This document shows positions 587-6,478 of a stretch of 64,000 bases of DNA, piece after piece. The DNA is taken from assembly GCF_900112315.1 (NCBI RefSeq), contig NZ_FOLL01000001.1:682001-746000 (forward strand). The letters run 5' to 3'. The translations under genes were made by a program, and so were the position numbers. Each line of letters starts with the position of its first letter. Position 1 is the stretch's first letter. The DNA comes from Parapedobacter composti (GTDB lineage Bacteria; Bacteroidota; Bacteroidia; Sphingobacteriales; Sphingobacteriaceae). The notes beneath the pieces were generated by a model. It had not been told where the DNA came from, did not search any database, and saw only the letters and a list, made by a program, of their open reading frames with translations.

Positions 587-775
587 ATGAAGAAAGCGAG
601 GTATCCCGAGAATTTGCCGCTGAAGCTTGAAATTGTGAAATCCCGGCGCACCATCAAAGAGATTGCCGAGAAAATCGGCGTCAGCAGGGAAGTGCTGACA
701 AACACCGTGAATGGACACTATAAAGGTGTCGAGGTGATTAAGAAACTGAAGTCTGAACTAAACATCAACGATTGA
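587..775 (+). CDS. Small HTH DNA-binding protein, first gene of the sigma/Cas12f-like operon
   Basis: A 62-aa protein that is almost entirely one HTH: LKLEIVKSRRTIKEIAEKIGVSREVLTNTVNG can be divided into two helices around the IGVS turn, as in Cro-like proteins. It begins just after the operator-like cluster and ends 17 bp before the ATG I use for the sigma-factor gene, so it is probably co-transcribed with it. It may be a regulator of the operon, analogous to a Cro/CI pair with the divergent XRE protein. There is no extra domain that would reveal an effector. The family call is at fold level only. Confidence 0.75.
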   Translation: MKKARYPENLPLKLEIVKSRRTIKEIAEKIGVSREVLTNTVNGHYKGVEVIKKLKSELNIND

Positions 776-792
776 CGAAAATTTTACGCGCC

Positions 793-1611
793 ATGCACGC
801 ATCGATCTACCGTACCAAGAAAAACGCCGAACGATTTTTCGACGCGCTCAAAGCTGGCGATGAAGCCGGGCTGAATTATTTCTACCGGGCCTATTATAAC
901 TACTATGCCTGGCGTGCCGAGCGGTTCGTCAAAGACGACGTCATAGCCCATGTTATCGCACAGGAAGCGTTTCTCCGGCTGTGGCTCATGCACGATATCA
1001 TCCGCGACGTACCGCACCTGCACGAATTCCTCGGCAGCCAGCTTCGCGAAGCCGGCATGGCGTATTACCGCAAAACCGCCAACCGCTTCCACCGGAGTAT
1101 GCTGCGGCTGGATGGCATCGAAGATTTTCAGGAGTTCATGCTGGGTTATGAAATAGAGGGAGAAGAGGAGGCAGATGTGGTCTACCTCGAACAGCTGGAA
1201 GCGGAAAAACAGCGGCAACTGGAGCAAATCAATGGGCTGTTGCCCAACCTGACCGCACAGCAGCAGTTGTTTATCCGGCTGTGCCTGCGGTACGGATTCA
1301 ACTACGAGCGCATCGCCTACCATTTGGGTGGCATCTCGGATTACGAAGTGGCCCAGCGTGTGGAGCAGTGCATCGCCAACCTGAAAGCCGCACTGTCTGG
1401 CACGACCAAACTGGACAGCGCCGCCCGCACCAAGCCGCTCGTCGCCGAAGGCATGCTCAGCGATGAGCAGGCGCAGGTACTGGCCATGCGGTATGACCTG
1501 CAATATTCCTTCGAGGAAATCGCCGAGGCGCTGCAACTGGACGACGCCAAGGTGAAATCATTGTTTGTACAGGCACACGCCGCCATTAAGAAGGGGAGAC
1601 AATCGGCCTGA
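793..1611 (+). CDS. ECF-type sigma factor with two region-4-like HTH domains
   Basis: A 272-aa protein. Residues ~15-95 resemble sigma-70 region 2 of Bacteroidota ECF factors (FYRAYYNYYAWRAERFVKDD, then AQEAFLRLW and a helix where the -10 recognition element lies). Residues ~148-200 look like region 4 (LTAQQQLFIRLCLRYGFNY, ERIAYHLGGISDYEVAQRV). Residues ~220-270 look like a second region 4 (LSDEQAQVLAMRYDL, SFEEIAEALQLDDAKVKSL). Usual ECF factors are ~160-200 aa with one region 4. I chose ATG 793; a TTG at 772 overlapping the upstream stop would add seven residues. Only 2 nt separate it from the Cas12f-like gene, so the two are almost certainly an operon. No anti-sigma gene is adjacent. Inferred role: RNA polymerase recruitment by the RNA-guided partner. 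Confidence 0.8.
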   Translation: MHASIYRTKKNAERFFDALKAGDEAGLNYFYRAYYNYYAWRAERFVKDDVIAHVIAQEAFLRLWLMHDIIRDVPHLHEFLGSQLREAGMAYYRKTANRFHRSMLRLDGIEDFQEFMLGYEIEGEEEADVVYLEQLEAEKQRQLEQINGLLPNLTAQQQLFIRLCLRYGFNYERIAYHLGGISDYEVAQRVEQCIANLKAALSGTTKLDSAARTKPLVAEGMLSDEQAQVLAMRYDLQYSFEEIAEALQLDDAKVKSLFVQAHAAIKKGRQSA

Positions 1612-2729: not shown

Positions 2730-2801
2730 ATTTTAGAGGCTGCTTGTACAGCCGCAGGGTGAGGTCAGGTTGACACTCACTGAATACTTTTTATTTACAA
2801 C
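2730..2801 (+). ncRNA. Candidate tracrRNA with anti-repeat for the Cas12f-like protein
   Basis: Directly after the effector stop codon there are two hairpins. The first is GGCTG (2738-2742) / CAGCC (2749-2753) with loop CTTGTA. The second is GTGAGGTCA (2759-2767) / TGACACTCAC (2771-2780) with one bulged base. Then ATACTTTTTA (2784-2793) can pair over 10 bp, with two G-U pairs, with TGAAAGGTAT in the array repeat. From memory, the Un1Cas12f1 tracrRNA contains a very similar GGCTGCTTG-CA-TCAGCC hairpin and a U-rich anti-repeat pairing with the GAAGG part of its repeat. The segment ends with TTTACAAC (2794-2801), resembling a repeat 3' end. The real 5' end is unknown and may lie inside the coding sequence. 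Confidence 0.65.
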
Positions 2802-2804
2802 AGA

Positions 2805-3155
2805 GTCTCGTTTGCGAAAATATTTGAGGGTGTATACGACGGCCGCTTGCGATTTGCCGTATATGTAATTATCGGCCTTAGAACTTATGTTAAAGATGTA
2901 TACAACAATGATGTCTCTCGTTTAGAGTTTTGGAGTATCCATAACCTTTCGGTTGTCAAATTGATATCGCTTTTGGAAAGATATACAAATGAGACGAGTT
3001 TTTTATAGTAAGTCCACTATCGTTGCTGGCCCGGATTTGAAAGGTGTATACAACATATAGATTTCATCGGCAACGCTTGTTGACTGTTGTTGCTGATCTC
3101 AATCTCAAATTGAAATGTATATGCAACAGCCATAAATTACGGCTTTACAAGGAAC
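2805..3155 (+). repeat. Degenerate 5' flank of the CRISPR-like array
   Basis: Diverged repeat units end at about 2840 (TGTATACGAC), 2906 (GATGTATACAAC), 2989 (AGATATACAAA), 3054 (TTTGAAAGGTGTATACAAC) and 3127 (TTGAAATGTATATGCAAC). Spacing is 66, 83, 65 and 73 nt, against 66 nt in the intact core. The 3' half of each unit, which would form the crRNA handle and pair with the tracr-like RNA, is far better kept than the 5' half. The unit at 3086-3127 carries an apparent 6-nt insertion. Intervening segments of ~28-31 nt look like old spacers. Confidence 0.6.
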
Positions 3156-3586
3156 GGCACTATTAATCCAATTTTGAAAGGTATATACAACGTTACTATG
3201 CAACAGCTAAAAGTAGACGCTGTTGTTGGTGATCACAATTTGAAAGGTATATACAACAGGGCCTCTGTAATTATTATTACCGGGCGCGTTGTTGGTGATC
3301 ACAATTTGAAAGGTATATACAACTTGTGCATTGTTATGGAAATGCAAGTTTTGTTGTTGGTGATCACAATTTGAACGGTATATACAACTGATGTATGGAA
3401 TGGATGGCGTGCCGCTTAGTTGTTGGTGACCACAATTTGAAAGGTATATACAACGTTCGGAAACATCTTAAAAGAAATGGTTACGTTGTTGGTGATCACA
3501 ATTTGAAAGGTATATACAACTAAGCGACAACATCGGTCAGGTCATCTGGGGGTGTTACAGATCCAAATTTGAAAGGTATATACAAG
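3156..3586 (+). CRISPR. CRISPR-like array, 36-nt repeats, ~30-nt spacers, no adaptation genes
   Basis: Repeat units: 3156-3191 (5' half diverged), 3222-3257, 3288-3323, 3353-3388 (one mismatch), 3419-3454 (one mismatch), 3485-3520, 3551-3586 (5' half diverged). The repeat begins GTTGTTGGTGATCACAA and ends TTTGAAAGGTATATACAAC; its ends GTTGT/ACAAC are inverted, as in type V repeats. Spacers 3192-3221, 3258-3287, 3324-3352, 3389-3418, 3455-3484 and 3521-3550 are 29-30 nt and all different. Type V geometry (handle 5' of guide) places crRNAs on the plus strand, the same as the operon. No cas1, cas2 or cas4 is present in the window. Confidence 0.9.
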
Positions 3587-3614
3587 GCACAATACTTTAG
3601 GCTGGTTGTCCATC

Positions 3615-3650
3615 GAGGTTGCAACCCGCAATTTGACAAGTATATACACC
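3615..3650 (+). repeat. Degenerate terminal repeat unit
   Basis: A last recognisable unit (GCAATTTGACAAGTATATAC at its core) sits 28 nt after the unit ending at 3586, close to the array period. It shares the 3' half of the repeat with several changes, as expected for the old, trailing end of a CRISPR array. Confidence 0.5.
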
Positions 3651-5209: not shown

Positions 5210-6478
5210 ATGATGAATCGATTAATCACCTACAGAACAGCTTTGTCGGCCATTGCCATGCTTGGCTTTGCCTCCTGCGATAAGGCGGCGCCGGAAAAAC
5301 TGGGGCCGGGCAAGGATTTGGTACTTACAGCTGCAGAACAACAAAAAGCGGGGAATGACAATCGGTTTGCTTTTGAGCTGTTCAGAACGGCAACAACAAA
5401 CCTGAAGGCCAATGAAAATGCACTGCTATCGCCTTTGAGCGTGGGTGTTGCTTTGGCGATGACCAATAACGGGGCGGTGGGTGAAACACGCCGAGCGATT
5501 GAACAAACGCTGAAGTTTGACGGGTTCGATACGGAAACCATTAACGCTTATTACCAGAAGTTATTGACTGACCTGCCCGCTCTCGATCCGAGAACTACGC
5601 TGGACATTGCTAACTCCATCTGGTACAGACAGGGCTTCCACGTATTGCCGGATTTCTTGAATATCAACGGTACGTTCTACAATGCCAATGTGTCGGCGTT
5701 GGATTTTGCCGACCCCGCTGCCCGGGATGTGATAAATAACTGGGTAAGCAATAAAACAAGAAAGAAAATACCGACCATCATTGACAACGGTATTCCTGCC
5801 GATATGGTTATGTACCTCATCAATGCGGTTTATTTCAAAGGTACATGGGAGCAGCGTTTCAAAAAAGCGGATACCAAAAGAGGCGTGTTTTCGCTACCAG
5901 ATGGTAGTACATTGCAAACGGATTTTATGCAGGTGAGACATAAGTTCAATCTGGCGGCGACGGATGAAGCGGAGGCCATAGAACTCCCTTATGGCAATAG
6001 AAAATACAGTATGGTGGTATTGATGCCGAGAGGAGGAACCACACCGGCGCAATTGGCGGAAAAATTGGTCGGCCCAGAAGCGTGGGCATCGGTGGTAGGC
6101 GCCTTTCGCACCGCGGAAGTCCAATTGGCGCTGCCAAAATTCAAATTCAGTTATGAAAACAAGTTGAATGATGAGTTGAGCGGCATGGGGATGGGGATAG
6201 CATTCAGCCCACAAGCGGATTTCTCGGGAATTGGGGGAGGACGGAACCTCGTCATCAGCGAAGTGAAACATAAGTCCTTTATCGAAGTGAACGAAGAGGG
6301 TACGGAAGCGGCAGCGGTTACCTCGGTAGGTGTCGAGCTTACTTCTGTTGGGCCAAGTGTTTATACACTTAACGTAAAACGCCCTTTCCTTTTCGCAATC
6401 CGGGAAATGAATACCGGGTTAATCTTGTTTTTAGGGCAGGTGAACAACCCATCAATTGAAGAAACCAAGGCGATATAG
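5210..6478 (+). CDS. Serpin-family lipoprotein (serine protease inhibitor)
   Basis: A 422-aa protein with lipobox GFASC (Cys ~23), so it is membrane-anchored. The serpin fold is clear: FAFELFRTAT, NALLSPLSVGVALAMTNNGA, TLDIANSIWYRQGF, MYLINAVYFKGTWEQRF, and the hinge VNEEGTEAAAVTSVGVELT followed by the C-terminal KRPFLFAIREMNTGLILFLG. The small-residue hinge (GTEAAAVTS) is what inhibitory serpins need for loop insertion, so it is probably a real inhibitor. Likely targets are proteases at the cell surface. It stands alone, with a strong terminator after it. A downstream ATG at 5213 is an alternative start. Confidence 0.92.
   Translation: MMNRLITYRTALSAIAMLGFASCDKAAPEKLGPGKDLVLTAAEQQKAGNDNRFAFELFRTATTNLKANENALLSPLSVGVALAMTNNGAVGETRRAIEQTLKFDGFDTETINAYYQKLLTDLPALDPRTTLDIANSIWYRQGFHVLPDFLNINGTFYNANVSALDFADPAARDVINNWVSNKTRKKIPTIIDNGIPADMVMYLINAVYFKGTWEQRFKKADTKRGVFSLPDGSTLQTDFMQVRHKFNLAATDEAEAIELPYGNRKYSMVVLMPRGGTTPAQLAEKLVGPEAWASVVGAFRTAEVQLALPKFKFSYENKLNDELSGMGMGIAFSPQADFSGIGGGRNLVISEVKHKSFIEVNEEGTEAAAVTSVGVELTSVGPSVYTLNVKRPFLFAIREMNTGLILFLGQVNNPSIEETKAI

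Follow-up and report, generated by a model that had tools for sequence, protein, structure and literature searches.

We wanted to know what a partly worn array of clustered regularly interspaced short palindromic repeats (CRISPR) might do when it lies behind a gene for a Cas12f protein that no longer appears to be a nuclease. The array occupies positions 2805-3650 (+ strand) of the window, a stretch of 64,000 nucleotides (nt; G000:C30:682001-746000) within a 4.6-Mb Parapedobacter genome, and it is preceded by genes for a sigma factor and a nuclease-dead Cas12f (dCas12f). That dCas12f and a sigma factor together carry out RNA-guided transcription was discovered only very recently; a 2025 preprint by Hoffmann and colleagues reportedly describes such dCas12f-sigmaE systems starting transcription at sites chosen by the guide. 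We think it likely that the array studied here is the guide bank of a multiplexed, RNA-guided transcription system of this type, in which the outcome would be activation. The preliminary description of this DNA had recognized the array, and the sigma/dCas12f pair, the adjoining guide RNA-like element and the targets had escaped it.

Proteins and putative guide RNA scaffold beside the array

The genes for the sigma factor and dCas12f are both open in this genome (Table 1). The only PDB match of the sigma factor at E ≤ 0.01 is chain C (RpoE) of entry 9n9q, which also contains a relative of dCas12f, and a homolog of the sigma factor adjoins dCas12f in 17 of the 18 loci examined. Beyond the best match of dCas12f, given in Table 1, other Cas12f chains in the PDB match at E values of 5.5e-38 and weaker. 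dCas12f has IAEASLS at the position of VGVDLG in four aligned Cas12f chains, and its C terminus falls 60-132 amino acids short of those of other Cas12f chains. The protein is under purifying selection, with a ratio of nonsynonymous to synonymous substitution rates (dN/dS) of 0.055-0.078 against five relatives. Because a nuclease-dead Cas12f and an RpoE-like sigma factor both match entries of a solved complex, the system is, judged by its sequence, of the dCas12f-sigmaE kind and would initiate transcription at guide-chosen sites.

Directly behind dCas12f sits an element that resembles a trans-activating CRISPR RNA (tracrRNA). We found 27 copies of it in 15 of the 19 loci scanned (in G106 and G111 the copies lie upstream of the gene) and none in the remaining four, which are more distant ones. 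Both hairpins of the element show changes on both sides of their pairs, and base pairing is possible between its ATACTTTTT end and GAAAGGTAT in the repeat. The duplex between handle and tracr has an energy of -8.1 kcal/mol with the intact handle and of -4.6 to -8.1 kcal/mol with diverged handles; pairing energy fails to separate diverged from intact units cleanly, one core unit being at -4.7. The element has no Rfam match up to E 0.5. We take it that a putative guide RNA scaffold is encoded beside the protein genes. Three more distant dCas12f loci of the family (L029, L030, and L034) gave weak tracr-like hits or none.

Further, we note that in the window the tracr-like element runs directly into a handle-like ATTTACAAC (Table 1); the guide behind it found no target, the best match being 19/30. 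There are three copies of the tracr-like element in P. luteus, three in P. tibetensis (L045) and four in G022 (L046), and some of these, by eye, are followed without a gap by what resembles the end of a handle and then a guide. Such tracr-handle-guide fusions resemble, again by eye, a natural single-guide RNA. The best match of the six guides fused behind tracr copies was 21/30.

Targets upstream of TlpA/SusCD operons

The array of the window and those of P. koreensis and P. luteus were searched against all nine genomes of the genus, and the arrays of P. luteus and P. soli against their own genomes. Strong matches that start at the first bases of the guide were seen repeatedly upstream of operons for TlpA-like thioredoxins, SusC, and SusD, at sites that adjoin divergently coded genes, several of them regulators. 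As a test set we used the 1500 nt upstream of TlpA-like genes picked by protein similarity (51 of 55 places), the TlpA query protein having come from a locus found through spacer 6. In this set, 11 of the 93 guides matched the strand of the operon at 17/20 or better and 1 matched the opposite strand, compared with 0.25 for shuffled guides and 0-2 for six control sets. Some of the 93 (e.g. G004_2654, G005_829, G005_2290, G000_945, G008_659, and G008_869) are pseudo-guides that follow a terminal or interrupted repeat. When all candidate loci were considered, 26 of the 91 distinct guides, from six species, matched at 24/30 or better; among shuffled guides 2 of 364 did so, and among reversed ones 0 of 91. 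These loci were partly selected by earlier matches, so that the share of 26/91 is not unbiased, and the results on direction and flank are independent of that selection. The 26 are also not fully independent of one another, since G004_407 resembles G004_2519 and has targets in common with it. Twenty-two of the 26 lie upstream of TlpA or SusC genes (one at 9.2 kb, one next to a partial match to SusC), without exception on the strand of the operon.

The sequence directly 5′ of the targets is also far from random. Positions -3 and -2 are both pyrimidines at 22 of the 26 targets (background 0.26, nominal P = 7e-10), and 16 of the 26 carry TYYD there (background 0.058, nominal P = 4e-14); TYYD was defined post hoc on the same 26 matches, two of which share a target, and the P values are therefore nominal. 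For the solved dCas12f ortholog, a single 5′-G before the target is reported, which we regard as a property of that ortholog and not as a defining one; here, G occupies position -1 in 8 of the 26 targets.

Among the guides of the window, that at 3192-3221 matches at 29/30 upstream of SusC/TlpA genes in G006 (two loci) and G003, at 28/30 in G008, and at 25/30 and 24/30 in two further G003 loci, the flank always being TTCG. The target of spacer 8 has the flank ACTG and shares its strand with a TlpA-SusC-SusD operon located 1.3 kb downstream. The guide of spacer 2 (2907-2936) matches G003:C1:2940591 at 18/20 (20/30) and a leader on contig C32 of its own genome at 14/16, and spacer 9 matches G002 at 26/30 near a partial SusC match (flank TTGA), which we kept as a weak hit. 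A scan of the regions upstream of SusC genes in the genome itself (92 stretches plus other own loci) gave few matches above the shuffle rate, which was 0.38 per spacer at 14/16 or better; spacer 8 stood out, as did spacers 2 and 11, which have weak seeds 37 nt apart in one C32 leader. Seed matches of spacer 4 (16 nt in the genome's own contig C31, others in relatives) were rejected as chance, their flanks being A or C and the C31 site lying within coding DNA. Little more than about ATACAAY survives in the P. tibetensis array, yet two of its guides, G007_664 and G007_791, fit candidate loci without a mismatch over the first 19 and 15 bases, respectively; eight of the nine worn G007 guides stay under 24/30, and G007_845 reaches 24 with the flank GGCG.

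A leader of ~290 nt, which separates the TlpA gene from the divergently coded regulator, is conserved (L338 5212-5504, - strand, in G000:C32; L126 5546-5832, + strand; L074 2159-1843, - strand). It carries TATCTTTG motifs, which we take to be promoter-like, and the C32 copy has no Rfam match.

Repeat wear and guide turnover

The repeat units, of which we counted 13, end at 2840, 2906, 2989, 3054, 3127, 3191, 3257, 3323, 3388, 3454, 3520, 3586, and 3650. They follow each other at 64-66 nt, except for distances of 83 nt (2906 to 2989) and 73 nt (3054 to 3127), in keeping with the ~13 units of ~66-nt period first described. Each of the five core repeats is GTTGTTGGTGATCACAATTTGAAAGGTATATACAAC or one base off. 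In the eight diverged units, 121 of 144 positions (84%) of the last 18 nt are identical to the core, compared with 68 of 144 (47%) of the first 18 nt, which agrees with the earlier claim that the 3′ halves are kept; the 3′ end was used to recognize the units, so these figures favor that half. Across the relatives, 5′ halves were found 81 times, 3′ halves 90 times and both 64 times, an asymmetry weaker than in this array. The last unit of the window (3615-3650) is probably a terminal repeat that carries no guide.

As shown by the target matches, guides behind diverged 5′ halves (12/18 or less) reach 24/30 in 7 of 26 cases and those of the remaining units in 21 of 67, and all seven matched guides behind diverged halves have pyrimidines at -3 and -2. 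Because targets are as frequent behind diverged as behind other units, the diverged units probably still work, and may well do so as had been proposed. None of the seven terminal repeats that have a recognizable 5′ half and no guide behind them retains the final ATACAAC. This loss, together with the equal frequency of targets, suggests that the 3′ end of the repeat is kept for making guides.

The core repeats contain a palindrome, GTGATCAC, that the preliminary description considered lost from the diverged units. Four copies lie within the 1.4 kb that follow dCas12f here; dCas12f of G026 is followed by one copy, and that of seven other relatives by none in up to 4.3 kb. Since it is present in this core and once in G026 and absent from the other seven, it has probably been gained, or is local, rather than lost. 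The direction of change had been read the wrong way round at least for the unit at 3551-3586, whose 5′ half is closer to the one typical of the genus, GGTGTTACAGACCCC, than to the core (Table 1).

The same description saw constraint on guides without new acquisition. The 3′ half does look constrained; the claim of no acquisition finds no support in the comparison of relatives, as most guides differ between species and the six arrays compared (93 units) have no true guide in common. Three guides do occur both in P. indicus and on a second contig of P. defluvii. Within blocks of four or five near-identical repeats, the guides are unrelated to one another. Guides of P. luteus fit the C32 locus of this genome at 30/30, 29/30, and 28/30, so it seems that the arrays track variants of the operons as these are moved or lost from one species to the next.

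Some further observations concern the arrays themselves. In P. luteus (L041) and at 3222-3520 of the window, blocks of near-identical repeats stand mid-array, away from the tracr end. The units of the P. soli array (L044) are interrupted by a dispersed repeat with GACGCTAGACACTAGACATCAG, which recurs elsewhere in that genome. We found cas1 in five of the nine genomes of the genus, including this one, where the sole match is on contig C21 and not beside dCas12f (cas2 was not searched for). A CRISPR array of ~96 repeats (ATTTCAATTCCTGTATGGTGCGATTAAAGG), unrelated to the repeat behind dCas12f, lies near this cas1 (L059, G000:C21:6000-25000).

Table 1. Coordinates of the sigma-dCas12f locus and its array (positions in the window)
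Feature	Position	Strand	Observation
Sigma factor, partner of dCas12f	772-1611	+	Pfam Sigma70_r4, E = 8e-9; PDB 9n9q_C RpoE, E = 1.8e-41
dCas12f, 364 amino acids	1614-2708	+	PDB 9n9c_A "Nuclease-deactivated Cas12f," E = 7.9e-125
tracrRNA-like element, two hairpins and anti-repeat ATACTTTTT (2784-2792)	2736-2792	+	Conserved copies in relatives
Handle-like ATTTACAAC fused to the tracr-like element, with 30 nt behind	2793-2831	+	Possible natural single-guide RNA
Diverged repeat 1	2805-2840	+	Versus core: 3′ half 13/18, 5′ half 6/18
Diverged repeat 2	2871-2906	+	Guide 2907-2936 behind, similar to TlpA/SusCD operon leader
Diverged repeat 3	2954-2989	+	Versus core: 3′ half 11/18, 5′ half 7/18
Diverged repeat 4	3019-3054	+	Versus core: 3′ half 17/18, 5′ half 10/18
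Diverged repeat 5	3092-3127	+	Versus core: 3′ half 16/18, 5′ half 10/18
Diverged repeat 6	3156-3191	+	Guide 3192-3221 behind, with the best cross-species targets of the array
Core, five intact repeats (ends 3257, 3323, 3388, 3454, 3520)	3222-3520	+	Interleaved guides unrelated
Guide of spacer 8	3324-3352	+	29/29 match in own genome, C56:8155-8127
Repeat 12, genus-typical type	3551-3586	+	5′ half: genus type 16/18, core 12/18
Last repeat, handle end TATACACC	3615-3650	+	Terminal repeats of relatives likewise without ATACAAC

Outside the locus, an open reading frame (ORF) at 5210-6478 (+ strand) has, by eye, the look of a serpin-type protease inhibitor.

Proposed activation, its alternatives and known systems

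In the mechanism that we propose, repeat RNA would pair with the tracr RNA, dCas12f would load the handle and guide, and the guide complex would open the target, at which the sigma factor would initiate transcription in the direction of the operon, in many cases crossing the divergent regulator in antisense. If a target is inside this regulator or on its far side, one guide could activate the uptake genes while interfering with their regulator. The first half of the repeat would be free to drift because only the last half enters the guide, and replacement of guides over time would let the array track the changing set of operon variants.

Several results weigh against this proposal. In 16 measured cases, the target is between 63 nt and 5.8 kb away from the first gene of the operon, in addition to the one at 9.2 kb, which is a wider range than a single promoter geometry. 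Four of the 26 matched guides do not fit: G004_2322 matches antisense to a metE-like ORF (by eye) of this genome; G002_942 matches a homolog of a gene on the regulator side of the C34 operon, SusC being absent from the 16 kb covered there; G002_626 matches an ORF of helix-turn-helix-like appearance 3.4 kb downstream of a SusD gene; and G004_2654 is a pseudo-guide in the DNA behind a terminal repeat. In the candidate loci, 65 of the 93 guides have no match of 24/30 or better, and of the 13 guides of this array only that of spacer 8 finds a near-perfect target within the genome itself; others match relatives better. Further, TlpA/SusCD operons do not need dCas12f, because G001 and G003, in which none was detected, carry two and seven TlpA-like genes of the family, in G003 accompanied by SusC and SusD. 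Finally, dCas12f of P. indicus (L049) and the sigma gene of P. defluvii (L043) are each not readable in a single frame in these assemblies. This reflects either real loss or assembly error, so that the pair may be broken in two of the six relatives from which we took arrays or genes; our confidence was lowered very slightly on account of these two genes.

The principal alternative accepts the same array and targets and holds that dCas12f mainly represses, blocking promoters or regulator genes beside the uptake operons in a manner similar to TldR or CRISPR interference. We consider this unlikely. It would account for the several targets inside divergently coded regulator or neighboring genes and for a P. 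koreensis guide that starts with TATCTTTG, which we take to be promoter-like; it sits poorly with a sigma homolog adjoining nearly every dCas12f and with the only solved relative of that sigma factor sharing a PDB entry with a relative of dCas12f, and it leaves the uniform orientation of the 22 upstream targets without a reason. A defense array, whose spacers would derive from foreign DNA with Cas1-Cas2 acting in trans and whose immunity would work through interference with transcription, seems very improbable to us. A common motif in the 5′ flank is what spacer acquisition would leave, cas1 is present in the genus and in this genome, guides often fit other species better than their own, and one guide lies in an IS3-type integrase-like stretch (by eye), another being that in the metE-like ORF. 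Against these stand the strong preference for a single operon family and a single strand, the position of cas1 here near ~96 copies of an unrelated repeat, and the absence of matches below E = 0.3 when this array, the only one searched there, was compared with phages and plasmids.

Least probable of all, in our judgment, is that the array is a decaying relic in which the conservation of the 3′ halves reflects detection bias or chance. The use of the 3′ end to find units would produce such a bias; the P. tibetensis array is so worn that a single unit passes the handle scan, and two genes in relatives are out of frame, as noted above. In this genome, by contrast, both genes are open, dCas12f has the low dN/dS of a constrained protein, the tracr-like copies are conserved, the statistics of targets and flanks are independent of the state of the repeats, and terminal repeats lose the part that the others retain.

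Like dCas12f-sigmaE (PDB 9n9c, 9n9m, 9n9o, and 9n9q), the locus has homologous dCas12f and sigma genes side by side, an inactivated RuvC, a conserved RNA-like scaffold adjoining the protein genes and SusCD-type targets upstream, which are also reported for the published system. Unlike that system, which reportedly has one or few guides, the arrays here have up to 32 units, natural targets mostly carry TYYD rather than the reported single 5′-G, targets are spread over kilobases upstream, and guides are renewed between species. The kind of system is thus a known one, and the multi-guide array, the regulon and the TYYD flank may be new. Type V-F CRISPR-Cas12f shares with the locus the Cas12f family, 36-nt repeats, ~30-nt spacers, a tracr-like RNA, and a pyrimidine-rich 5′ flank; it differs in that here the nuclease residue is replaced, the targets are bacterial nutrient operons, and we found neither an active RuvC nor spacers from phages or plasmids (in the array searched) nor cas1 beside the effector. 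TldR is not known to have a repeat array or a sigma partner and consists of a TnpB-type protein with its own guide, in contrast to the Cas12f homolog with sigma factor and array described here. Both are nuclease-dead RNA-guided transcription regulators, and one account (PMC13418256) describes TldR as derived from the transposon protein TnpB and as a repressor. The 2025 CRISPR classification (PMC12669027) mentions inactivated type V subtypes that block transcription; the words "sigma" and "Cas12f" occur zero times each in its main text.

Overall, we conclude that named species provide natural multi-guide arrays for dCas12f and its sigma factor, a flanking motif drawn from natural targets and a likely regulon consisting of one operon family. 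Two questions can thereby be put to the test: what portion of a repeat is necessary for a guide, and whether guides that serve regulation rather than defense can be acquired by a CRISPR array. More tentatively, and with rather less than even confidence, we suggest that the array could be an immune memory turned into a regulatory one: it would gain and lose guides selected by TYYD, and dCas12f and the sigma factor would use them to switch on exchangeable uptake operons, including variants now found only in sister species, antisense through the operons' own regulators.
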